Shown here: positions 1,167 through 23,299 of the stretch, one piece after another | Position numbering within the stretch: the first letter of the stretch is position 1 | How the letters are laid out: each line of letters starts with the position of its first letter | From: an uncultured Jannaschia sp. | Lineage (GTDB): Bacteria; Pseudomonadota; Alphaproteobacteria; Rhodobacterales; Rhodobacteraceae | NCBI RefSeq assembly: GCF_947494055.1 | Contig: NZ_CANLTR010000006.1 | Span: forward strand, 1-64,000 | Reading direction: 5' to 3' | Length of the DNA: 64,000 nt | Notes under the pieces: generated by a model | What the model was told of the DNA's origin: nothing | Databases searched by the model: none | Seen by the model: only the letters and a program-made list of their open reading frames with translations | Made by a program: the position numbers and the translations under genes

Positions 1167-2611
1167 TGGCGGGCCGTCTGTTTCGCCGCCTCGCGCTCGG
1201 CACCGGTCTCGCCCTAGTCACGGCAATCCCACTGGCCGCCGAGACGCTCAGCGACACGCTCATCCAGGCCTACCGCACCTCGCCGCTCCTCGAGCAGCAG
1301 CGCTATCTGCTTCGCGCCACGGACGAGGACGTTGCCGTCGCCGTCGCCGCGCTGCGCCCCACCGTGAGCTTCCAGTCGAGCTACGGCAAGACCGTGACCT
1401 TCACCGACCGTCAGCGGGTTCGGCAGACCAACCCGCTCGACGGGGTACAGACCTCGATCAATGTCGGCGGGCGGGAGACGACCACGATCGGCGCTCTCTC
1501 GCTCGTGCTCGACTACGTGCTGGCAGACGGCGGACAGCGTCACCTGCGCATCGGTGCCGCGAAGGAAGCGGTAATCGGCGCACGGTTCAACCTGACGCAG
1601 GTCGAACAACAGGTCCTGCTCGATGCCGTGTCGGCCTATCTGAACCTGCGACTGGCGGTCCGCCTGGTCGACGTGCGGCAGACCAACGTGCGCCTGATCG
1701 ACCAGCAGCTCAGCGCGACGCAGGACAGGTTCGAGGTCGGCGAGGTCACCCGGACCGACGTGGCGATCGCGCAGTCGCGCCTGGCCGCTGCCCGCTCGGC
1801 ACTCGCCGCGGCGCGGGGACAGGTGGATATCGCGCGCGAGACATATCGTCTGGCCACCGGCACCCTGCCCGGCAGCACGCTGGCCGACCCGCCCCCGCCC
1901 CCGGCCCTGCCGCCGAGCGTCGAGCGCGCGCAGCAGCTTGCGTTGCAGATCCACCCGCTGGTTGCCGCCGCGCAGCACGACATCACCGCGCTGACCATTC
2001 TGGCGGAGGCACGGGCGGCTGATCGGCTTCCGACGGTATCGCTCCAGGCCAATGCCGGACGGCAATCGCCGGATACCGACTCGCTGAACCTCAGCCTGCG
2101 CGGAACCATGCCCGTCTATACCGGCGGTCAGTTGCCTGCCCTGCAACGTCAGGCCATCGCGCGGGCGCAGGCCGCGCGCGGCGATCTGGGCAACACCAGC
2201 CGCCAGATCGTCGAAGGCGTCGGTCGGGCCTATGCCGGGCTGGAAGTGGCCCGCGCGCAGATCACCGCGACGCAGGAAGGCGTGCGCGCGTCGGAACTGG
2301 CTTTCGAGGGCCTGCGCGAGGAGGCGACGCTGGGCGTTCGCACCACGCTCGACGTGCTCGACGCAGAGAACGATCTGCTCGTGGCGCGTACCGACCTGCT
2401 CACGGCGCAATCGGATGCGCAACTCGCGGTCTATCAAGTGCTCGCATCGATCGGCCTGCTGACGACGGAGCATCTAGGCCTGTCGGTGGAGCGCTACGAC
2501 CCGTCGATCTATTACAGCGCGGCGGCGACTGCCCCGCAGGACACGACGCTGCGCCCGTCCGAACGCGGCGGCCGGCTTGACAGCGTCCTGCGGCGGTTCA
2601 ACCGCAACTGA
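1166..2611 (+). CDS. tolC: TolC-family outer membrane efflux/type I secretion channel
   Basis: This 481-residue protein has a signal peptide (RR at residues 7-8, hydrophobic core about 9-22, likely cleavage after AA at 24-25). Two outer-membrane-efflux repeats follow, rich in long amphipathic helices, with the typical start ETLSDTLIQAYRTSPLL. The second repeat contains the LDVLDAENDLLVARTDLL segment. TolC proteins form the trimeric outer-membrane duct for type I secretion and tripartite efflux pumps. The frame remains open upstream to 467, but that part overlaps the methyltransferase gene in another frame. The ATG at 1166, overlapping the previous stop, fits the signal peptide. No cognate ABC transporter or adaptor gene is in the window, so the cargo is unknown. 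Confidence 0.9.
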   Translation: MAGRLFRRLALGTGLALVTAIPLAAETLSDTLIQAYRTSPLLEQQRYLLRATDEDVAVAVAALRPTVSFQSSYGKTVTFTDRQRVRQTNPLDGVQTSINVGGRETTTIGALSLVLDYVLADGGQRHLRIGAAKEAVIGARFNLTQVEQQVLLDAVSAYLNLRLAVRLVDVRQTNVRLIDQQLSATQDRFEVGEVTRTDVAIAQSRLAAARSALAAARGQVDIARETYRLATGTLPGSTLADPPPPPALPPSVERAQQLALQIHPLVAAAQHDITALTILAEARAADRLPTVSLQANAGRQSPDTDSLNLSLRGTMPVYTGGQLPALQRQAIARAQAARGDLGNTSRQIVEGVGRAYAGLEVARAQITATQEGVRASELAFEGLREEATLGVRTTLDVLDAENDLLVARTDLLTAQSDAQLAVYQVLASIGLLTTEHLGLSVERYDPSIYYSAAATAPQDTTLRPSERGGRLDSVLRRFNRN

Positions 2612-2709
2612 CCCGGACGGGTGGCACCTTCGCCGCGGCGGACAGAGATACGGGTCACGATGCGGCGGCGCGCGACAGCCCGCCGCTAAGGGAGCGATCG
2701 GAGAGCACC

Positions 2710-3183
2710 ATGGCGACGCGGGAGAGCAGCGACGACCTCGTCGCATCGGTGCGGAACCTGCTTGCGCAGGAGACCGCGCGAGAGACGAGCACCGATCCCG
2801 TAAGGCAGGGGGACGGGCCCACGCTCCTGCTGGCGGCGGAGCAACGCGTACGCAACGAGGACGAATCCGTCGCGGCGTCCGGGGACTGGGCACGCGCGGA
2901 ACTTCCCGAGGACTATGCCGAAGACGCTGATTTCGAAGATGGCGGGCCCCTGCCCGCGGCGCCCGCGACGTCGAGTTCGCTCGCGGACCTGTCGGAGGAA
3001 CCGACCGAGGACCCGGATCTGCGCAATCTCGTGACGGAGATCGTGCGGCAGGAACTCGCCGGTGAACTCGGCGAGCGTATCACCCGCAATGTCCGCAAGC
3101 TCGTCCGCCGTGAGATCGCGCGCGCCATGGCCGGAACCGATGCCGGTGGACCCCAAACCGGAAACGAAAAACCGCGCCGGTAG
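2710..3183 (+). CDS. PopZ/DUF2497-like acidic protein
   Basis: This is a 157-residue acidic protein. The middle (about 55-105) is low-complexity and rich in Pro, Ala, Asp and Glu. The C-terminal helix region, about residues 110-145 (LRNLVTEIVRQELAGELGER, then ITRNVRKLVRREIARAM), is the diagnostic part of the DUF2497/PopZ family. PopZ in Caulobacter is a polar organising protein that uses a similar acidic linker plus C-terminal oligomerisation helices. Whether this copy organises the pole is inference. The ATG at 2710 follows GGAGAGCACC. Its TAG stop (3181-3183) lies inside the loop of a hairpin that probably terminates the opposing gene. Confidence 0.65.
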   Translation: MATRESSDDLVASVRNLLAQETARETSTDPVRQGDGPTLLLAAEQRVRNEDESVAASGDWARAELPEDYAEDADFEDGGPLPAAPATSSSLADLSEEPTEDPDLRNLVTEIVRQELAGELGERITRNVRKLVRREIARAMAGTDAGGPQTGNEKPRR

Positions 3184-3216: not shown

Positions 3217-3546
3217 TCAAGCGGCCTCGGCCGCCTCCGCCAGTTCAGCCGCGTGGCGACGCTCGCTCTCCTCGCGCGATAGCGCGACGGAGGTGCGGAC
3301 CCCGCGACTGACGAATTCCATGAGTCCGGCGACGACACGCTCGTTCGGATCGATCCCGGCGCAGGAAAGAACTTCCCGCCCGTCGCGGGACCGCGCCCAG
3401 CGGGCGATCTGATCGGGTCCGTTGCCGAATTTCTTGTCGTCGGAGATGGCGTCGTCCAGCGCGGCCAGAACAACGGCGGCAAACAGCTTGCGCGCACGCT
3501 GCCCCTGTTCGAAATTGAACGCAGTTGCGTCGACGAAATCCGTCAT
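3217..3546 (-). CDS. Small conserved Rhodobacterales protein (DUF6280-like)
   Basis: This 109-residue soluble protein has no signal peptide or membrane segment. The sequence includes FNFEQGQRARKLFAAVVLAA and NERVVAGLMEFVSRGVRTSV, which I recognise as a strongly conserved small family in Rhodobacteraceae, from memory DUF6280. Its function is not known to me. The start at 3546 follows GGAGAGAGCGGT, a clear ribosome-binding site. It is transcribed convergently to the PopZ-like gene and ends in a strong terminator, so it appears to be a single-gene unit. Confidence 0.7.
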   Translation of the reverse strand: MTDFVDATAFNFEQGQRARKLFAAVVLAALDDAISDDKKFGNGPDQIARWARSRDGREVLSCAGIDPNERVVAGLMEFVSRGVRTSVALSREESERRHAAELAEAAEAA

Positions 3547-3877
3547 ACCGCTCTCTCCTTATTGCTCTTGCTTCTTCTCAGGTTCAGCGACCTAGCACGT
3601 GGAACCCCGATCCGTGCTATGCGATTCTGGAATACCCCATATGCCAATGCCGCATCTCGCGTTGTTCAGGATACAAGGTTCGGTGGTCGGGCCCGCTGCG
3701 ACACGACAACATCTGGCCCTTGCCTCGTTTGTTTCAACCATGCGTCAACTTGTTGACACAATCCCGGTTCCCGGATCGGAGCCGTTTTGTCACCGATCGA
3801 CGGCGTTCTGTACGCTTGCCCGAACCGACGGCAATGCGTAGAGCGCAGCGGACACACGCCTTCGGAGACCTCGCGCA
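3547..3877. other. 331-bp spacer between the DUF6280-like gene and efp
   Basis: The spacer is visibly poorer in GC than its surroundings. It must hold the promoters of the divergent small gene and efp. Short open frames across it (for example 3562-3756) have no ribosome-binding site or recognisable product. The one ordered element I see is the palindrome at 3744-3757. Confidence 0.6.
3744..3758 (+). promoter_or_regulatory. Palindrome GTCAACTTGTTGAC overlapping a TTGACA -35-like element upstream of efp
   Basis: GTCAAC and GTTGAC form a perfect 14-bp palindrome at 3744-3757. It overlaps TTGACA at 3753-3758, a consensus -35 hexamer. The sequence 17 bp downstream (TCGGAG) is a poor -10, so promoter activity is uncertain. 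It lies about 120 bp before the efp start. Confidence 0.3.
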
Positions 3878-4441
3878 ATGCCCAAGATCAACGGCAACGA
3901 AATCCGCCCTGGCAACGTGCTGGAGCACGACGGCCATCTCTGGTCGGCGGTGAAGGTCGACCACGTGAAGCCCGGCAAGGGCGGCGCCTTCGCGCAGGTG
4001 GAGCTGCGGAACCTGCGCAACGGCTCCAAGCTCAACGAACGCTTCCGCTCCGCCGACAAGGTGGAACGCGTCCGGCTCGAACAGAAGGACCAGCAGTTCC
4101 TTTACGAGACTGACGGCCGTCTCGTCTTCATGGACACCGTCAGCTACGACCAGGTCGAGCTCGACGCGGAAATCCTGGGTGAGCGGCGGCCGTTCCTGCA
4201 GGATGGGATGATGGTGCAGGTCGAGTATTACGACGATGAGGCGCTGAACGCGACGCTTCCGCAGAAGGTGGTCTGCAAGATCGTCGAGACGGAACCGGTC
4301 GTGAAGGGCCAGACCGCCGCGAACAGCTTCAAGCCGGCGCTGCTCGACAACGGCGTCCGCGTGATGGTGCCGCCCTTCGTCGGCCAGGACGAGGACATCG
4401 TCGTCAACACCGAGACGATGGAATATTCCGAGCGCGCCTGA
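3878..4441 (+). CDS. efp: Translation elongation factor P
   Basis: This 187-residue protein has the normal length of EF-P, which binds between the P and E sites and relieves ribosome stalling at consecutive prolines. The KOW-like domain I (1-65) carries the loop KPGKGGAF with Lys34 at the tip, the residue that is beta-lysylated in species with EpmA. Whether it is modified here is unknown. OB domains II and III follow, ending with the conserved [20 protein letters not shown] region. The ATG at 3878 gives the standard N-terminus [15 protein letters not shown] small lipoprotein gene follows 43 bp downstream. Confidence 0.97.
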
Positions 4442-4484
4442 GCCGCGCTTGCCGGGCCCGATCGCCGCGCCTAGTCTCTGCGCC

Positions 4485-4778
4485 ATGTGGCGTCTGATCC
4501 CCTTCGCCCTGCTCGCCGCCTGTGCCGAGCTGCCCCCTGTCGAGGACACGATCTCGACGGACGCGCGATTGCGGGCGAACCCGGTCCTCATGCCGCTCGA
4601 CCCCCTTCTTGCGGAGGGCCGCAATCCTTCGCGCGCCGGGTCGGAGCAGGGAATCCTCTTGGCGCGCGGCGCGGCGCTCGGGCGCGCGACGATCGCCGTG
4701 CCCCGCACTGACGATCTCGACGTTCGCGCGCGTCGCCTGCGGGACCGGGCCGAGGCGCTTCGGGCGGCGGAGATCTGA
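4485..4778 (+). CDS. Small lipoprotein of unknown function
   Basis: This 97-residue protein has a short lipoprotein signal: MWRLIPFALLAAC with lipobox LAAC, so the acylated cysteine would be residue 13. The rest is charged and without membrane segments, ending in a helical RRLRDRAEALRAAE stretch. Aspartate does not follow the Cys (CAEL), so an outer-membrane destination is plausible. The frame could start at 4449, but only the ATG at 4485 gives a clean signal peptide. I recognise similar short lipoproteins beside efp in relatives but cannot assign a function. Confidence 0.7.
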   Translation: MWRLIPFALLAACAELPPVEDTISTDARLRANPVLMPLDPLLAEGRNPSRAGSEQGILLARGAALGRATIAVPRTDDLDVRARRLRDRAEALRAAEI

Positions 4779-4847
4779 CGGCGTTGCGCCCCTGACCGTC
4801 ACCGGCTAACCGGGCGCGGACCAGATTGCAGCCCGGAGACACCGCAG

Positions 4848-6134
4848 ATGACCACACCTCTCCGCCTCGGCATCGCAGGGCTCGGCACCGTCGGCGTGGG
4901 CGTGGTGCGAATGGTCGAGGGCAATGCCGACCTGCTCGCCGCGCGCACCGGCCGGACGATCGCGATCACGGGCGTCTCCGCCCGGACCCGCGACCGCGCG
5001 CGCGGTGTCGACCTGTCGGGCTATGCCTGGGAGGACGATCCGGTCGCCCTTGCCCGGCGCGACGACGTCGATCTCTTCGTCGAACTGATGGGCGGCGCGG
5101 ACGGCCCGGCCAAGGCCGCGACCGAGGCCGCGCTGGCAGCGGGCAAGCCCGTGGTGACGGCCAACAAGGCAATGCTGGCGATCCACGGCCAGGCGCTGGC
5201 CGAACTCGCGGAGGCGAACGGCGCGCCGCTGCGCTTCGAGGCGGCGGTCGCGGGCGGTATCCCCTGCATCAAGGCGCTGACCGAAGGGTTGGCAGGCAAC
5301 CGGATCACCCGGGTCTCCGGCGTGATGAACGGCACCTGCAACTACATCCTGACGCGGATGGAAGCTGCGGGCCTGCCATACGACGAAGTGTTCGAGGAGG
5401 CGCGCGCGCTGGGCTATCTCGAGGCCGACCCGACGCTCGACGTGGGCGGGATCGATGCATCGCACAAGCTCGCCATCCTCTCGGCCATCGCCTTCGGGAC
5501 GCGGGTGGACTTCGCCGGCGTCCGGATCCAGGGGATCGAGCGCGTCTCCATCGATGACATCCACCGCGCCCGCGACATGGGCTACCGCATCAAGCTGCTG
5601 GGCGAGGCGCGGGCGACGCCGGAGGGGATCGAGCAGTCGATGCGCCCGACACTGGTGCCCGCCGACAGCCCGCTGGGACAGCTCGAGGGCGGCACGAACA
5701 TGGTGGTGATCGAGGGGGATGCCGTGGGCCAGATCGTCCTGCGCGGCGCCGGCGCCGGCGAGGGCCCGACCGCCTCCGCCGTGCTGGGCGACATCTGCGA
5801 CGTCACGCGGGGGCTCGACAGGCCCACCTTCGGCCAGCCCGCGACGACACTCGCGAAAGCCGCCCGTGCGTCCGCCGCCACGGGCTGCGCGCATTACCTG
5901 CGGATGGTGCTCCGCGACGAGCCCGGCGCTCTGGCGCGCGTGGCCACGGCGCTCGGACGGGCCGGCATCTCGATCGACCGGATGCGGCAATACGATCACC
6001 CGGGCGACGACGCGCCGGTTCTCATCGTCACCCATCCCTGCGCGCCCGCCGATCTCGCCGCCGCGCTGGAGGATGTGAAGGGCACGGATGTCGTCCGGGG
6101 CGAACCGGTCGCGCTGCAGATCCAGACGCCCTGA
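4848..6134 (+). CDS. hom: Homoserine dehydrogenase
   Basis: This 428-residue enzyme reduces aspartate semialdehyde to homoserine, the branch point for threonine and methionine. It has the N-terminal Rossmann motif GLGTVGVG and the NKAML segment. The catalytic domain carries GVMNGTCNYIL and EADPTLDVGGIDASHKLAIL. A C-terminal ACT domain (from about residue 350, MVLRDEPGALARVATALG) is typical for feedback control by threonine. Length and domain order are those of the standard bacterial enzyme. It is followed by glpX after a 72-bp spacer that has its own promoter-like sequence. metZ, which also uses activated homoserine, is elsewhere in the window (45.5-46.7 kb). Confidence 0.97.
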   Translation: MTTPLRLGIAGLGTVGVGVVRMVEGNADLLAARTGRTIAITGVSARTRDRARGVDLSGYAWEDDPVALARRDDVDLFVELMGGADGPAKAATEAALAAGKPVVTANKAMLAIHGQALAELAEANGAPLRFEAAVAGGIPCIKALTEGLAGNRITRVSGVMNGTCNYILTRMEAAGLPYDEVFEEARALGYLEADPTLDVGGIDASHKLAILSAIAFGTRVDFAGVRIQGIERVSIDDIHRARDMGYRIKLLGEARATPEGIEQSMRPTLVPADSPLGQLEGGTNMVVIEGDAVGQIVLRGAGAGEGPTASAVLGDICDVTRGLDRPTFGQPATTLAKAARASAATGCAHYLRMVLRDEPGALARVATALGRAGISIDRMRQYDHPGDDAPVLIVTHPCAPADLAAALEDVKGTDVVRGEPVALQIQTP

Positions 6135-6147
6135 CGGGACGGGCGGC

Positions 6148-6176
6148 TTGATTAGCTGCGCCCTGCCGCCTAAGCC
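6148..6176 (+). promoter_or_regulatory. Putative sigma-70 promoter of glpX
   Basis: TTGATT (6148-6153) and TAAGCC (6171-6176) are separated by exactly 17 bp and lie 31-59 bp before the glpX start. The -35 is good and the -10 is weak, as is common in high-GC alphaproteobacteria. Confidence 0.4.
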
Positions 6177-6206
6177 ACCGGCAACGCCATCTCGCGAGGA
6201 CCCCCG

Positions 6207-7166
6207 ATGCCCAAGATCGACTTCAACGACCGGATGCTGTCCCTCGGGCTCGCACGGGTCTCCGAGGCCGCCGCCCTCGCCTCAGCCCGCCTGATCGGCC
6301 GGGGCGACGAGAAGGCCGCGGACCAGGCCGCGGTCAACGCGATGCGGGATCAGCTCAACCTGCTCGACATCGCGGGAACGGTGGTGATCGGCGAGGGCGA
6401 GCGCGACGAGGCGCCGATGCTCTATATCGGCGAGGAGGTCGGCACCGGAAACGGCCCGGAGGTCGACATCGCGCTCGATCCGCTCGAGGGCACGACGCTG
6501 ACCGCCAAGGACATGCCGAACGCGCTGACGGTGATCGCGATGGGGCCGCGCGGCTCGATGCTGCACGCGCCGGACGTCTACATGGACAAGCTCGCCATCG
6601 GCCCCGGCTACCGCAACGGCGTCGTCACGATGGACATGTCGCCGGCGGAGCGCGTGAACGCGCTGGCCGCCGCCAAGGGCTGCTCCACGCAGGACATCAC
6701 CGTCTGTGTGCTGGAGCGGCCGCGCCACGAGGAGATGCTGGCCGAAATCCGCGGCACCGGCGCCGCGGTCCGCCTCATCACCGACGGCGACGTGGCCGGC
6801 ATCATCCACTGCGCGGAGGCCGCGACGACCGGCATCGACATGTACATGGGCTCGGGCGGGGCGCCGGAGGGCGTGCTGGCCGCCGCGGCGCTCAAATGCA
6901 TGGGTGGGCAGATGTACGGCCGTCTGACCTTCCGTAACGATGACGAGCGGGGGCGCGCGACAAAGGCCGGAATCACCAATCTCGACCGCGTCTACACGCG
7001 CGACGATCTCGTGACCGACGACGTGATCTTCGCCGCGACGGGCGTCACGGACGGCTCGATCCTCTCGGGCATCAAGCGCGAAGTCGGCTACCTGACGGCG
7101 GAGACCATCCTGATGCGGTCCAAGACCGGGTCCGTCCGCCGCATGGTCTATCGCAACCCGACCTGA
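6207..7166 (+). CDS. glpX: Fructose-1,6-bisphosphatase class II
   Basis: This 319-residue GlpX-type phosphatase hydrolyses fructose 1,6-bisphosphate in gluconeogenesis. In some relatives it also acts on sedoheptulose bisphosphate. The metal and substrate sites are visible: GEGERDEAPMLYIGEEVG followed by DIALDPLEGTTLTAKD, the lithium-sensitive phosphatase signature. The C-terminal half has SGGAPEGVLAAAALKCMGGQ, which binds the phosphate. The ATG at 6207 has GAGGACCCCCG upstream. The stop is one base from the recJ start (7168), so the two are probably co-transcribed. This hom-glpX-recJ order is common in Rhodobacterales. Confidence 0.96.
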   Translation: MPKIDFNDRMLSLGLARVSEAAALASARLIGRGDEKAADQAAVNAMRDQLNLLDIAGTVVIGEGERDEAPMLYIGEEVGTGNGPEVDIALDPLEGTTLTAKDMPNALTVIAMGPRGSMLHAPDVYMDKLAIGPGYRNGVVTMDMSPAERVNALAAAKGCSTQDITVCVLERPRHEEMLAEIRGTGAAVRLITDGDVAGIIHCAEAATTGIDMYMGSGGAPEGVLAAAALKCMGGQMYGRLTFRNDDERGRATKAGITNLDRVYTRDDLVTDDVIFAATGVTDGSILSGIKREVGYLTAETILMRSKTGSVRRMVYRNPT

Positions 7167-18681: not shown

Positions 18682-19833
18682 ATGTCCCTCGTTCCCACCG
18701 CCTGCCTCGCCCTCGCCGACGGGACAATCTTCAAAGGGCGCGGGTTCGGGGCGACGGGCGTCGCGGTAGCCGAGCTGTGCTTCAACACGGCGATGACCGG
18801 CTACCAGGAGATCATGACCGACCCGAGCTATGCCGGGCAGGTCGTCACCTTCACCTTCCCGCATATCGGCAACACCGGCACCAATCCCGAGGACGACGAG
18901 GCGCAGGATCCGGTCGCCGCGGGAATGATCGTCAAGTGGGACCCGACCGAGCCGTCGAACTGGCGCGCCGCGCGGGGCCTGGAAGACTGGCTCGCCGCCG
19001 GCGGCCGGATCGGGATGGGCGGCGTGGACACCCGCCGCCTGACCCGTGCGATCCGCCAGCAGGGTGCGCCGCATGTCGCGCTCGCGCATGACCCTGAAGG
19101 CCGCTTCGACATCGAGGATCTGGTCGCCCGTGCCCGTGCGTTTCGGGGACTCGTCGGCATGGACCTCGCCCGCGAGGTCAGCTGCGCGCAATCCTACCGG
19201 TGGGACCAGACCCGCTGGGCGTGGCCCGCGGGTTTCGGACAGGTCGGGACGCCCCGCCACCGGGTTGTCGCGATCGACTACGGCGCCAAGCGCAACATCC
19301 TCCGCTCCCTCGCCCATACCGGGAGCGAGGTGACGGTCCTGCCCGCGACGGCGACGGCGGATGACGTGCGCGCGCTGAACCCCGACGGGCTGTTCCTGAC
19401 GAACGGACCGGGCGATCCGGCGGCGACGGGCGAGTACGCGGTGCCGGTGATCCGCGAGATGGTGGAGAGCGGCCTGCCGGTCTTCGGCATCTGCCTCGGT
19501 CACCAGATGCTCGCGATGGCGCTCGGCGCGAAGACGATCAAGATGAACCATGGCCATCACGGCGCCAACCATCCCGTGCAGCGCCGCGCCGACGGCAAGG
19601 TCGAGATCACCTCGATGAACCACGGCTTCACCGTCGACACGCAGACGCTGCCAGCGGACGTGGAGGAGACGCATGTCTCGCTCTTCGACGGCTCGAATTG
19701 CGGCATCCGCCTCTCCGGCCGGCCGGTCTTCTCGGTCCAGTACCACCCTGAGGCCAGCCCCGGCCCGCAGGACAGCACCTACCTCTTCGATGATTTCGCG
19801 GCGGCGATGGATGCGCATGCCCTGACGCGCTGA
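18682..19833 (+). CDS. carA: Carbamoyl-phosphate synthase small subunit
   Basis: This 383-residue glutaminase subunit supplies ammonia to CarB for arginine and pyrimidine synthesis. The N-terminal domain has ELCFNTAMTGYQEIMTDPSY and GVDTRRLTRAIRQQG. The class I amidotransferase domain carries TNGPGDPAA, the nucleophile elbow FGICLGHQM with the catalytic Cys, and the HPE of QYHPEASPGP with the catalytic His and Glu. The ATG at 18682 follows CCGGAGAGTTCCG; the frame open to 18646 has no ribosome-binding site. carB is not adjacent. The next gene follows after 65 bp. Confidence 0.97.
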   Translation: MSLVPTACLALADGTIFKGRGFGATGVAVAELCFNTAMTGYQEIMTDPSYAGQVVTFTFPHIGNTGTNPEDDEAQDPVAAGMIVKWDPTEPSNWRAARGLEDWLAAGGRIGMGGVDTRRLTRAIRQQGAPHVALAHDPEGRFDIEDLVARARAFRGLVGMDLAREVSCAQSYRWDQTRWAWPAGFGQVGTPRHRVVAIDYGAKRNILRSLAHTGSEVTVLPATATADDVRALNPDGLFLTNGPGDPAATGEYAVPVIREMVESGLPVFGICLGHQMLAMALGAKTIKMNHGHHGANHPVQRRADGKVEITSMNHGFTVDTQTLPADVEETHVSLFDGSNCGIRLSGRPVFSVQYHPEASPGPQDSTYLFDDFAAAMDAHALTR

Positions 19834-19898
19834 AGCCATTTAAAGCTTCGTTAACCGGAGTACGGCTAGGCACGGCGCGTCCTTGCGCAAGGCTCGCC

Positions 19899-21917
19899 AT
19901 GCCCGCTCGCCCCGCGAAAAACCCGGTCTATGCGCCCCCGGACGGGGGCATGGGCGGATTCGCCGACGACCTGCTCCGACCTGGACCGCTTGTCCGCGTT
20001 CACCGCCGCGTCCCCGGCGAAGGACGGCGCAAGCTGGGCGAGATCCTGATGGAGAAGGGGGCCATCTCGCCCTCGGACCTTGCGCGCGCCCTGATCCTGC
20101 AGCGTCGCCTCTCGGCCCGCATGGGCGACGTGCTGCTGCGTCGCGGCCTCGTCTCGGAAGACGTGCTCGCGGACGCGCTGGGCGAGCAGCGCTCGATGGG
20201 CCGGGCGGGTCCCGCCCCCAGAAGCTCGATCTCGGCCGACACACTCGCCCGCAAGCTGCCGCTCGCGGTGGCGCTGGAGTTCCGGGCCATGCCCTGGGGG
20301 CGGGTCGGCGGACAGACCCTGATCGCGACCTCCCGCCCGGAAAACCTCGATGTTCTGCGCGCCGCGATCCCGTCGGAAATGGGTCCGTGCCTCTTCGCCG
20401 TCGTGACCGACACGGCCCTCGACACGCGCATGCAGGAGGTGCACGGCCCCGCCCTTGCCCGCGCGGCGGAATGCCGCGTGCCGCGGGAGATGAGCTGTCG
20501 TCTCTGGCGCGCCCGGCCGGGCGCGGCGGTGCTCGCCCTGATGCTGGTCGCCACGCTCTACGCCACGATCCAGTGGCCGCTCGAGGCCCTGCGCCTCGCG
20601 ACCGCGCTCGGCCTCGTGGTGATGCTGAGCAATCTCGCGCTCCGGGTCGCCGCGGCGATCACGATGCACCGCGCCACCACACCCTTCGTGTCGGTCCGTC
20701 CGGTGGAGGCCGCCGCGCGCAAGCTGCCCTGCATCTCGATCCTCGTGCCGCTCAACCGCGAACCGGACATCGTGGGCGAGCTGACGGCCCGGCTCTCCCG
20801 GATCGACTACCCGCGCGAGTTGCTCGACATCTGTCTTGTGGTCGAGGAGGCCGACACCGAAACGATCGACGCCCTCGCCCGCGCCGATCTGCCGATCTGG
20901 ATGCGCGTGATCGAGGTGCCGCCCGGCTATCCCCAGACCAAGCCGCGCGCGATGAACTACGCGCTGAACTTCGCACGCGGCTCCATCGTCGGCATCTACG
21001 ACGCAGAGGACGCGCCGGCGCCGGACCAGCTGATGATCGTGGCGGGCCGGTTCCAGACGGCGCCGCCGGACGTGGCCTGCCTGCAGGGGATGCTGGACTA
21101 CTACAACCCGGACCGGAACTGGATGTCGCGCTGCTTCACCATCGAATACGCGAACTGGTTCCGGCTGGTCCTGCCGGGGATCGCGCGGATGGGGCTCGTG
21201 GTGCCGCTCGGGGGCACGACGCTCTTCTTCCGGCGCGACGCGCTCGAGGATGTCGGCGGCTGGGACGCGCACAACGTCACCGAGGATGCCGATCTGGGCG
21301 TCCGGCTCGCCCGTCGCGGCTACCGTACCGAACTGGTCCGCACGACCACGCTGGAAGAGGCCAACGCGGCGCCCTTCAAATGGGTAAAGCAGCGCTCGCG
21401 CTGGATGAAGGGCTACATCCTGACCTGGGCCGTGCATACGCGGAACCCGTTCGCTCTGATCCGGGATCTCGGCGTGAAGCGCTTCGCCGGTCTGCAGCTC
21501 CTGTTCCTCGGCTCGATCCTGAACGCGCTCCTGATGCCGACGCTTTGGTCGACGCTCGCGATCATGTTCGGCTGGCGCCATCCGATCCTCGACTGGCTGC
21601 CGGGCGACGGGATCGTGGCGATGGCGATCCTGATGATTTCGGCCACGCTGCTGTCGATCAGCGTCACCTGCATCGGCTGCGCCGCGCCCCACCACCGGCA
21701 CCTCCGATGGTGGATCCCGACGCTGGAGGCGTATTTCCCGCTCGCCACGATGGCCGTCATCCGCGCACTCGTCGAGATCGCGCTTCGGCCGTTCCACTGG
21801 GAAAAGACCGAGCACGGCGCGTTCGGCGGCGCCGCGGCGGCGGAGATCTACGCGCTGGAGCGGACGGTGGCGGCAGGCTCGATCGCGGTCCGGCCGCGCG
21901 CCGGACACGGCGGCTGA
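19899..21917 (+). CDS. Membrane glycosyltransferase family 2 with N-terminal MshEN/GspE-N domain
   Basis: This is a 672-residue fusion. Residues 45-97 hold two 24-residue motifs, KLGEILMEKGAISPSDLARA(LILQ) and RMGDVLLRRGLVSEDVLADA(LGEQ), separated by five residues. This is the layout of the MshEN domain that binds cyclic di-GMP. A transmembrane pair (about 207-250) is followed by a GT2 catalytic domain with PLNREPD, a DAED at 368-371, the GGTTLFFRRDAL acceptor region, TEDADLG (461-467) and QRSRW (498-502), as in processive or cellulose-synthase-like enzymes. More helices lie at about 525-620. It should polymerise or transfer a sugar at the inner membrane. NfrB, a GT2 with MshEN at the opposite end, is activated by cyclic di-GMP; similar control here is inference. 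Confidence 0.85.
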   Translation: MPARPAKNPVYAPPDGGMGGFADDLLRPGPLVRVHRRVPGEGRRKLGEILMEKGAISPSDLARALILQRRLSARMGDVLLRRGLVSEDVLADALGEQRSMGRAGPAPRSSISADTLARKLPLAVALEFRAMPWGRVGGQTLIATSRPENLDVLRAAIPSEMGPCLFAVVTDTALDTRMQEVHGPALARAAECRVPREMSCRLWRARPGAAVLALMLVATLYATIQWPLEALRLATALGLVVMLSNLALRVAAAITMHRATTPFVSVRPVEAAARKLPCISILVPLNREPDIVGELTARLSRIDYPRELLDICLVVEEADTETIDALARADLPIWMRVIEVPPGYPQTKPRAMNYALNFARGSIVGIYDAEDAPAPDQLMIVAGRFQTAPPDVACLQGMLDYYNPDRNWMSRCFTIEYANWFRLVLPGIARMGLVVPLGGTTLFFRRDALEDVGGWDAHNVTEDADLGVRLARRGYRTELVRTTTLEEANAAPFKWVKQRSRWMKGYILTWAVHTRNPFALIRDLGVKRFAGLQLLFLGSILNALLMPTLWSTLAIMFGWRHPILDWLPGDGIVAMAILMISATLLSISVTCIGCAAPHHRHLRWWIPTLEAYFPLATMAVIRALVEIALRPFHWEKTEHGAFGGAAAAEIYALERTVAAGSIAVRPRAGHGG

Positions 21918-21921
21918 CCGC

Positions 21922-22539
21922 TCAGAACGCCCGCGCCTCCTCCCGGAGCCGCGTCTCGAACGCGGAGCTCAGATGGCTGCGGAGCGCGTCCGCCGCCCGA
22001 TCCCCGTCCCCTGCGGCAATGGCCGCCACGATCGCGTGATGCTCGGCCAGCGCCACCTCGCCCCGCCCGGGTGCGGCGAGCGAGGTCGTGGCCATCAGCG
22101 CCATCGAGCGATGTACCATGTCGAGTTGCTGGACCAGGTAGCGATTGTGCGACGCCAGATGGATCTGGCGGTGGAAGCGCCGGTTCGCCCGCGACAGCGC
22201 CCGGGCATCGTCGAGGAACGCGACGTCCTCGTCGACCATCTGCGCCAGCACCCGCGCCTCCTCCGCGGCGGCGTGCTTGGCGGCGAGCCGCGCGGCCAGC
22301 GCCTCGAGCTCGGTGCGGACGGCGTAGAGTTCGGCCATCTGGTCGTGGTTGAGCGTCGCGACGATGAGCGACCGGCCGTCGCGCCGCAGCACGCCTTGCG
22401 TCTCCAGCCGCTGCAGCGCCTCGCGGATCGGGGTGCGCGACATGCCGAATCGCTCGGCGAGTTCGATCTCCACCAGACGGTCGCCCGGCCGGAACGCGCC
22501 GCGGTCGATCGCGTCGAGGATCAGAGCATGCGCATCCAT
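21922..22539 (-). CDS. GntR-family transcriptional regulator (FCD/FadR-type)
   Basis: This 205-residue regulator has a winged helix at about 1-65 (PGDRLVEIELAERFGMSRTP, then IREALQRLETQGVL). An all-helical FCD domain follows, with metal-site residues in RRFHRQIHLASHN and EHHAIVAAIAAGD plus ALRSHL. FCD regulators bind organic acids or sugar acids and usually control adjacent catabolic genes, but none is adjacent here, so the target is unclear. The start at 22539 follows GGGAGGGGTGGG. The frame open to 22641 would overlap the divergent HAD gene. It converges on the glycosyltransferase gene with only 4 bp between the two. Confidence 0.88.
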   Translation of the reverse strand: MDAHALILDAIDRGAFRPGDRLVEIELAERFGMSRTPIREALQRLETQGVLRRDGRSLIVATLNHDQMAELYAVRTELEALAARLAAKHAAAEEARVLAQMVDEDVAFLDDARALSRANRRFHRQIHLASHNRYLVQQLDMVHRSMALMATTSLAAPGRGEVALAEHHAIVAAIAAGDGDRAADALRSHLSSAFETRLREEARAF

Positions 22540-22639
22540 CCCACCCCTCCCGGTGCCGTGCCGCGGGCCGGACGCTAGCGACGCGGCCGCGACAGCGCAA
22601 CGCTTGACGGCGCCATCCCCGGCGGCCACCAGACCGGGC

Positions 22640-23299
22640 ATGGCCTTCGACCACGTCAGAACTTGGATCTTCGATCTCGACGAGACGCTCTATCCGCCGA
22701 GCACGCCCCTCTTCCCGCAGATCGAGGCGCGGATGGGGGCGTGGATCCGCGCGAAGCTCGGCGTGAGCGCGGCCGAGGCCGACGCGCTCCGCGCGCGCTG
22801 GTGGCACGACCACGGCACCACCCTCGCCGGCCTCATGCGCGAGCACGGCGAGGACCCGGGCCCGTTCCTCGCCGACGTGCACGACATCGACTTCTCCGTG
22901 CTCGCCCCCGACCCCGACCTGCGCGCCGTGCTCGAAGCCCTGCCCGGCCGGCGGATCATCTACACGAACGGCACCGCGCCCTATGCCGAGCGGGTGCTGG
23001 CGGCGCGTGGCCTGGGCGGGCTCTGGGATGCGGTCTATGGGGTCGAGCACGCGGACCACGTGCCCAAGCCCGACCGGGAGGCCTTCGACCGCGTCTTCGC
23101 ACGCGACGGGCTCGACCCGACCGGCGCCGCGATGTTCGAGGACAGCGTCCGCAACCTCGCCGTGCCGCACGAGCTGGGCGTCGTCACCGTGCATGTCGGC
23201 CCGATCCGCGACCCCGCGCCCTACGTGCGGCACCACACCGACGATCTGGTCGCGTTCCTCCGGGACATCGCCTCCGGGCAGCCTAGATCCGTCGCATGA
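22640..23299 (+). CDS. HAD-family pyrimidine 5'-nucleotidase-like hydrolase
   Basis: This 219-residue protein has the HAD nucleophile motif FDLDETLYPP (Asp12, Asp14) followed by STPLFPQIEARM, typical of the SDT1/phm8-like pyrimidine 5'-nucleotidase group. Motif II is IIYTNGTAPYAERVL, motif III is in PKPDREAFD and motif IV is AMFEDSVRNLAVPHELG. It probably dephosphorylates nucleoside monophosphates. The ATG at 22640 is chosen because the frame upstream overlaps the GntR gene. The stop overlaps the start of the UbiH-type gene (ATGA), so they are coupled. Confidence 0.85.
   Translation: MAFDHVRTWIFDLDETLYPPSTPLFPQIEARMGAWIRAKLGVSAAEADALRARWWHDHGTTLAGLMREHGEDPGPFLADVHDIDFSVLAPDPDLRAVLEALPGRRIIYTNGTAPYAERVLAARGLGGLWDAVYGVEHADHVPKPDREAFDRVFARDGLDPTGAAMFEDSVRNLAVPHELGVVTVHVGPIRDPAPYVRHHTDDLVAFLRDIASGQPRSVA

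Follow-up and report, generated by a model that had tools for sequence, protein, structure and literature searches.

NfrB of Escherichia coli is the experimental model of a family 2 glycosyltransferase (GT2) gated by an MshEN domain; this domain was reported to bind cyclic di-GMP (c-di-GMP), and changes in either domain to impair plating of phage N4 (PMC8669469). Fusions of MshEN with glycosyltransferases are already in print (Wang et al. 2016). BgsA, a mixed-linkage beta-glucan synthase of the Rhizobiales, is described as a c-di-GMP-activated glycosyltransferase that contains no predictable c-di-GMP domain (PMC5567048), and xagB of Xanthomonas is described as the glycosyltransferase gene of a biofilm exopolysaccharide operon under the HD-GYP protein RpfG (PMC3609779). 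In the Rhodobacterales, c-di-GMP is reported to affect biofilm, motility, and gene transfer agents (PMC9552610), and the authors of a study on Dinoroseobacter shibae report that they found no PilZ protein and no homologue of YcgR or DgrA (PMC6473078). Here we describe a gene from an uncultured Jannaschia sp. (contig NZ_CANLTR010000006.1, positions 1 to 64,000, the whole of which we call the window). This gene (19899-21917, + strand, stop codon included) is predicted to encode a membrane glycosyltransferase (GT) of 672 amino acids with an MshEN domain at the N-terminus. We propose, with a probability of roughly 0.6, that it is a polysaccharide synthase transcribed under CtrA and gated by c-di-GMP, and that its family has discarded the sensor repeatedly. 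In the open-access literature, which leaves out most subscription papers and supplements, we recognised no report on this GT family, on the CtrA-type box described below, or on the sensor loss.

A predicted c-di-GMP sensor joined to a membrane glycosyltransferase

A preliminary description of the gene had noted two 24-residue motifs of the MshEN type separated by five residues, and had proposed a profile search as a check. The NCBIfam model NF053729 (MshE-related c-di-GMP motif) matched residues 45-97 over its full length (profile positions 1-53 of 53) with 56.2 bits against a cut-off of 38. The Pfam MshEN model matched residues 111-156 in the C-terminal subdomain with 26.0 bits against a cut-off of 23.1. 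The key residues of motif I (residues 45-68; 20031-20102, + strand) are K45, L46, G47, L61, L65, and Q68, and those of motif II (residues 74-97; 20118-20189, + strand), after a spacer of five residues, are R74, M75, G76, L90, L94, and Q97. One detail needs correction: six residues, not seven, lie between the second glycine of a motif and the next leucine. The C-terminal subdomain, MshEN_C, occupies residues ~98-183 (20190-20447, + strand) according to the Pfam match and the structure model of the N-domain.

All 12 ligand-contact positions (R/K, L, G, L, L, and Q in each motif) are present when K for R and M for L are counted as accepted. The first position of motif I is K and not R. A lysine aligns at this position in PilF-GSPIIB from Thermus thermophilus, the structure of which was solved with c-di-GMP bound, suggesting that the change is compatible with binding. 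By contrast, XpsE, a known non-binder, lacks at least 7 of the 12 contacts and so keeps at most 5, counted from the changes given in Wang et al. 2016. Searching the Protein Data Bank (PDB) by sequence returned the c-di-GMP domains of MshE (residues 43-155) and PilF (40-153) as well as MshEN of PilB. The N-domain was modelled with a predicted local distance difference test score (pLDDT) of 93.7, and the model contains both the MshEN_N and the MshEN_C fold. Its eleven best Foldseek matches in the PDB were c-di-GMP-bound structures of T. thermophilus PilF-GSPIIB and Vibrio cholerae MshE, with template modelling scores of 0.73-0.81 by target length (8pe0, 9glg, and 8pdk at the top, and also 5htl). 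Thus, the direct control by c-di-GMP that had been suggested as probable is well supported by the complete set of contact residues and by a predicted fold like that of the ligand-bound proteins.

The remainder of the protein is a membrane GT2, as had been described, and its catalytic motifs are intact. In an alignment of 62 sequences (the window protein and 61 relatives), D368/D371, T461-E462-D463, and Q498-R499-x-R501-W502 are invariant. Profile, alignment, and Foldseek place the catalytic domain at residues ~276-515 (20724-21443, + strand). The structure model and hydropathy predict two membrane helices before it (residues 205-225 and 227-258; 20511-20672, + strand) and two or three after it. 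The latter lie in a C-terminal region (residues 528-640; 21480-21818, + strand) that ends with the motif W634-x-K636-T637-x-H639-G640, the specified letters of which are invariant in all 62 sequences. This segment may be akin to the gating-loop motif of BcsA. An AlphaFold2 model of the whole protein, made with 62 sequences, had a pLDDT of 89.4; BcsA was its top Foldseek match in the PDB, with a mannosyltransferase and hyaluronan synthases (HAS) close behind. By sequence, this part of the protein matched cellulose synthases and a few other glycosyltransferases in the PDB.

The DxD, TED, and QxxRW motifs and the flanking helices are those of processive membrane GT2 synthases of the BcsA/HAS/PgaC kind. 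We consider it unlikely that the enzyme, under c-di-GMP control, instead makes no polymer and transfers only a single sugar or a few to a lipid or some different acceptor. The NCBIfam models HpnI and MftF do match alongside CelA, PgaC, and EpsU, each far under its cut-off, and no exporter was found among the conserved neighbours of the gene; against this stand the QxxRW and TED motifs, the helices, and the fold matches to BcsA and HAS.

A CtrA-type box between carA and the glycosyltransferase gene

The conserved upstream neighbour of the GT gene is carA (18682-19833, + strand; TIGR01368, 429.8 bits against a cut-off of 307, with the first methionine of the conserved protein taken as the start), which we regard as genomic context and not as a component of the proposed system. 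Between the two genes, 43 bp before the ATG, is the sequence TTAAAGCTTCGTTAAC (19840-19855, + strand), a CtrA-type box of the form TTAA-N7-TTAAC. It is the only perfect TTAA-N7-TTAA in the 64-kb window, where 0.01 is expected, and was absent from the observations in the preliminary description. The consensus obtained for CtrA of Hyphomonas by chromatin immunoprecipitation sequencing (ChIP-seq) is reported as TTAA-N7-TTAAC, with very similar motifs in other species (PMC7200025).

In an even draw of Rhodobacteraceae genomes, which we refer to as the family, 135 of 149 contain the GT gene. Of the 136 GT-bearing family genomes, 131 have carA next to it in the same orientation. In the stretch that begins 15 nt ahead of the carA stop codon and ends 150 nt past it, a perfect TTAA-N7-TTAA is present in 104 of these 131 genomes, and a box with at most one mismatch in 123. 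None of 655 control windows of 150 nt inside carA or the GT gene contained a box with at most one mismatch; dinucleotide shuffles gave a perfect box in 0.11% and one mismatch in 3.2%; and the 165 nt upstream of carA had a perfect box in 0 of 106 genomes and one mismatch in 1 of 106. The box was also found in 15 of the 18 other genomes of the window's genus that have carA in the stretch retrieved, and in 58 of 71 loci of a set picked by similarity, which overlaps the family draw. Among nine genomes that have carA and lack the GT gene, the box after carA is perfect in none and has one mismatch in two. Thus, the box goes with the GT gene.

In the 4.7-Mb assembly that holds the window there are 12 distinct TTAA-N7-TTAAC sites, compared with 2 for the reversed pattern. 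Of the 11 sites besides the window's, one is at a gene for a CckA-like kinase, where it falls within the first part of the reading frame as called; the best NCBIfam match of this partial protein is CckA, under the cut-off. Another is just upstream of a luxR-luxI pair (box at 1501 and open reading frames at 1640-2395 and 2521-3015 of locus L325, from the window's genome). CtrA networks of Rhodobacterales are reported to include ctrA, cckA, and luxI2/R2 (PMC6473078) as well as cckA and divL (PMC2877005), and for luxI2/R2 of D. shibae such a box has been predicted in print. The CckA-like and luxR-luxI sites are of known kinds of Rhodobacterales CtrA target. The remaining boxes are at or near genes for a PAS-domain protein, a WbpM-like protein, a response regulator and kinases, an MFS transporter, RepA, a VPLPA-CTERM protein, and others. 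At the WbpM/CapD-like polysaccharide biosynthesis gene (loci L323 and L324, box at 1501) the box is double, on both strands, about 210 bp before the gene and also inside an open reading frame of the opposite strand; this may be a second CtrA-linked surface glycan.

That the conserved box binds another regulator, or serves carA, seems very improbable to us. The assignment to CtrA was made by consensus, and two of the nine GT-less genomes keep a one-mismatch box after carA. On the other side, the box is identical to the Hyphomonas consensus, further copies stand at the CckA-like kinase and before luxR-luxI, and neither those nine genomes nor the 106 regions upstream of carA have a perfect one. 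As to a carA-GT operon, a simple scan of the region showed no terminator-like site and readthrough from carA is possible, but the box stands between both genes.

The order yqeY, carA, GT, GntR, HAD, FAD monooxygenase is conserved (names from a family search on the window proteins), and in the window the GntR/FCD regulator, likewise genomic context, follows at 21922-22641 on the - strand. Of 81 loci, some of them cut by contig ends, 72 have carA 5' of the GT gene. Unlike the nfrBA, pga, and bcs operons, the conserved neighbourhood contains neither an exporter gene nor any further glycan gene. All 20 genomes of the window's genus contain the GT gene. The closest named relatives are Jannaschia (7 of 80 loci, 61-69% identity), and the motif stretches of these seven loci recur among other genomes of the genus, which places the window in Jannaschia or in a genus containing it. 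The GT gene is thus a core family gene at a fixed place and does not belong to an exopolysaccharide island. In a draw across the class, 37 of 289 genomes contain the GT gene. The motif half is present, several times weakly, in 19 of the 35 class-level relatives examined (two of these belong to the family), and apart from two family members we found no carA in the flanks of class-level loci (mostly ~1.5 kb per side).

Genomes G013, G107, and G088 (loci L261, L262, and L263) encode a second GT that is ~35% identical and shares the domain layout but whose motif is poor; no carA was seen in the 5 kb examined. Actinobacterial relatives of the GT core occur on plasmid records of Frigoribacterium (L141, NZ_CP043651), the protein of which has no Pfam MshEN match, and Nonomuraea (L142), where none was seen by eye.

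Retention and loss of the sensor among relatives

Within the window's genus (20 genomes, the window's included), the number of contacts kept is 12 in 13 genomes, 11 in three, 10 in two, and 4 in one, and the motif half is absent from one. Thus 18 of 20 genomes keep at least 10 of 12 contacts, and in one of the two with 10 the gene is interrupted by an IS element; NF053729 (E 0.001) found no match in the decayed (L314) and the deleted (L322) member. Over 18 rows, contact columns are better conserved than other MshEN_N columns (0.92 versus 0.59), a contrast that is flattered because the decayed, the motif-less, and one partial row had been removed before counting. The deletion in L322 (546-2186, G448:C5) has taken MshEN_N and, by eye, also most of MshEN_C, an exception to the pattern of MshEN_C retention described below; catalytic domain and carA linkage are kept, making this a natural sensor deletion. 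In L321 (~3263-6640, G451:C1) an insertion of ~3.4 kb, with a transposase of the IS1595/ISXO2 type inside it (Pfam PF12762, 132 bits), divides the GT gene in two, a natural knockout.

Conservation of the motif across orthologues had appeared general in the similarity-picked set (60 of 62), a figure biased by the choice of sequences for their similarity to the window. We rejected this conclusion because the even family draw shows wide loss. After nine short sequences were dropped from the 136 (the window's included), 127 remained. Of these, 21 score at least 11 contacts, 36 score 9-10, 18 score 7-8, and 23 score below 7, and MshEN_N is undetectable in 29 (no match, or under 10 bits, with a model built from the similarity-picked set). 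The first position of motif I is P in 49 and R in only 13 of the 98 detectable domains. The preliminary description had held that absence of the motif arginine and glycine positions from orthologues would refute control by c-di-GMP; this objection applies in part at the level of the family, whereas the genus keeps the motif.

When kept and lost sensors are mapped on a catalytic-core tree (109 rows counted, 18 middling-score rows being left out), at least 16 changes are needed on the best tree, four of which are forced by well-supported (starred) branches. Of the 127 family sequences, 126 retain all nine catalytic residues, including all 52 in which the sensor is degenerate or undetectable, and MshEN_C is recognisable (E <0.001) in 28 of the 29 without MshEN_N. 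Because MshEN_N was dropped repeatedly and MshEN_C almost never, the latter probably serves in coupling or in structure in its own right. Whether or not the sensor is intact, the box is retained, being perfect in 45 of 55 genomes with a kept, 13 of 17 with a middling, 22 of 23 with a degenerate, and 21 of 29 with a lost sensor, and in 3 of 7 with short sequences. All of this speaks for a reading in which MshEN is a fading relic or structural partner, CtrA alone controls the synthase, and c-di-GMP is irrelevant even in Jannaschia. We nevertheless regard that as quite improbable, because 13 of 20 genus genomes, the window's among them, keep all 12 contacts and the contact columns are conserved above the others.

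We also asked how the gene is distributed relative to other c-di-GMP genes. In the window's genome we found 13 GGDEF matches. For receptors, the MshEN and PilZ families were searched at E 0.001: the window protein was the sole MshEN match, and there was no PilZ match. PilZ is present in only 33 of 149 family genomes, making the GT gene the more widespread receptor candidate. All eight family genomes without GGDEF (no match at E 1e-10; G014, G029, G033, G059, G090, G102, G109, and G136, seven of them at least 95% complete) also lack the GT gene (Fisher 2.6e-10, with G122, in which the GT gene is cut at a contig end, counted as positive). On an RpoB tree of 27 of 30 genomes, the three without usable RpoB being left out, this double absence has four origins on the best tree, two of which are forced by starred branches. 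In G109 (L149) the carA and GntR matches are ~50 bp apart with no GT gene between them. In four of the 13 GT-less genomes carA found no match either, and three of these four are 78-83% complete.

Across the class, GGDEF was found in 206 of 289 genomes, in 33 of 37 with the GT gene versus 173 of 252 without it (Fisher 0.011, kinship ignored), an association that is suggestive only. Of the four GT-bearing genomes without GGDEF (a count of zero for one, while the other three were not among the positives), G298 and G396 have no MshEN_N, G361 has 3 of 12 contacts, and in G166 the frame is cut. PilZ is present in 17 of 52 sensor-lost and 9 of 57 sensor-kept family genomes (p=0.045, kinship ignored), which we did not use as evidence. 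The number of GGDEF proteins did not differ between sensor-lost and sensor-kept genomes (p=0.47).

Several of these results weigh against a c-di-GMP-gated polysaccharide synthase under CtrA. The motif reaches at least 9 of 12 contacts in only 57 of 127 family members and is degenerate or undetectable in 52, so that control by c-di-GMP is not essential to the enzyme, and the GT cannot be the receptor everywhere in the family because many of its members lack the motif. The loss of the GT gene together with GGDEF had looked like proof of coupling. However, 6 of the 8 GGDEF-less genomes lack the HAD neighbour as well and a seventh has it only weakly (all 17 GT-bearing genomes checked for it have it), making the co-loss unspecific and weak evidence, and testing by independent pairs was underpowered. 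The genes at the remaining boxes of the assembly have no clear link to CtrA, and several boxes, the CckA-like one included, lie within called reading frames. The conserved neighbours include no exporter and no other gene for a glycan. The product could be a glycolipid.

A proposed two-input synthase and its known counterparts

In the mechanism that we favour, a CtrA-dependent promoter in the gap between carA and the GT gene would drive the latter, so that phosphorylated CtrA (CtrA~P) makes the enzyme. Binding of c-di-GMP to MshEN would gate it, and the product would cross the inner membrane through the synthase itself. Output would need both inputs, CtrA~P and c-di-GMP, because the promoter would depend on one and the enzyme would be switched by the other. 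A model for D. shibae proposes that, in some cells, an increase in c-di-GMP turns CckA towards dephosphorylating CtrA (PMC6473078). On that model, the two inputs would be opposed in time, with the enzyme primed at low c-di-GMP and fired as c-di-GMP rises. In the many relatives that have lost the binding half and kept the box, MshEN_C, and the catalytic residues, CtrA would be the only visible control.

Alternatively, c-di-GMP may inhibit the enzyme, in which case CtrA~P and low c-di-GMP would work together. This would be coherent with a CtrA box, given that in the D. shibae model CtrA~P falls under c-di-GMP, and loss of the sensor would leave an active enzyme. BcsA, however, is activated by c-di-GMP. 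NfrB is likewise modelled as allosterically activated by it (PMC8669469). Because the known cases are activated, we rate activation above inhibition, which we find rather improbable.

If the enzyme is CtrA-transcribed and c-di-GMP-gated, its synthesis as well as its activity is probably linked to the choice of the cell between settling and swimming. It would offer a receptor candidate in most of the Rhodobacteraceae, with a predicted glycan output and a predicted controller in CtrA. A bolder proposal, which we hold only tentatively, is that the family, in which PilZ is uncommon, has here its ancestral direct output for c-di-GMP and the most widespread one: a core glycan synthase under a CtrA lock and a c-di-GMP lock joined in one circuit, from which the sensor was lost repeatedly while the CtrA lock and an MshEN_C hinge were kept. 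In that case, natural sensor-plus and sensor-minus enzymes are ready-made for learning how MshEN gates a synthase, and the two losses inside the genus, one by deletion and one by decay, allow comparison of the role of each half. What is new here is the conserved CtrA-type box, the repeated loss of the sensor with MshEN_C and the catalytic site kept, and the limited occurrence of PilZ in the family and its absence from the matches in this genome.

Compared by description with XagB, the window protein differs in its surroundings: XagB belongs to an operon, xagABCD, whereas the window gene adjoins carA, and we know of no link between XagB and carA. BgsA is an alphaproteobacterial glycosyltransferase like the window protein, and unlike it has no predictable c-di-GMP domain. 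BcsA resembles the window protein in fold, in catalytic motifs, and in having c-di-GMP as the likely allosteric signal. Its sensor is a PilZ domain at the C-terminus, whereas the window's genome has no PilZ match, and the window protein, at 66.5 bits, does not reach the CelA cut-off of 699. With MshE and PilF-GSPIIB it shares the tandem 24-residue motifs, the five-residue spacer, MshEN_C, and the predicted fold; those proteins are pilus ATPases, whereas the output here is a glycosyltransferase.

NfrB, encoded in the NfrBA-YbcH system, is like the window protein a GT2 with DxD, TED, and QxxRW motifs and an MshEN domain. In NfrB this domain is C-terminal and nfrB is beside nfrA and ybcH; in the window protein it is N-terminal, no exporter was seen nearby, and the neighbours are YqeY, CarA, GntR, HAD, and an FAD monooxygenase, with no adjacent nfrA. 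The preliminary description took this to be an arrangement independent of NfrB. It is neither confined to this genome, being widespread in the family, nor the first MshEN-glycosyltransferase fusion in print, but the distinction from NfrB holds, with the reverse domain order and a score of 49.9 bits against the NfrB equivalog cut-off of 1170.

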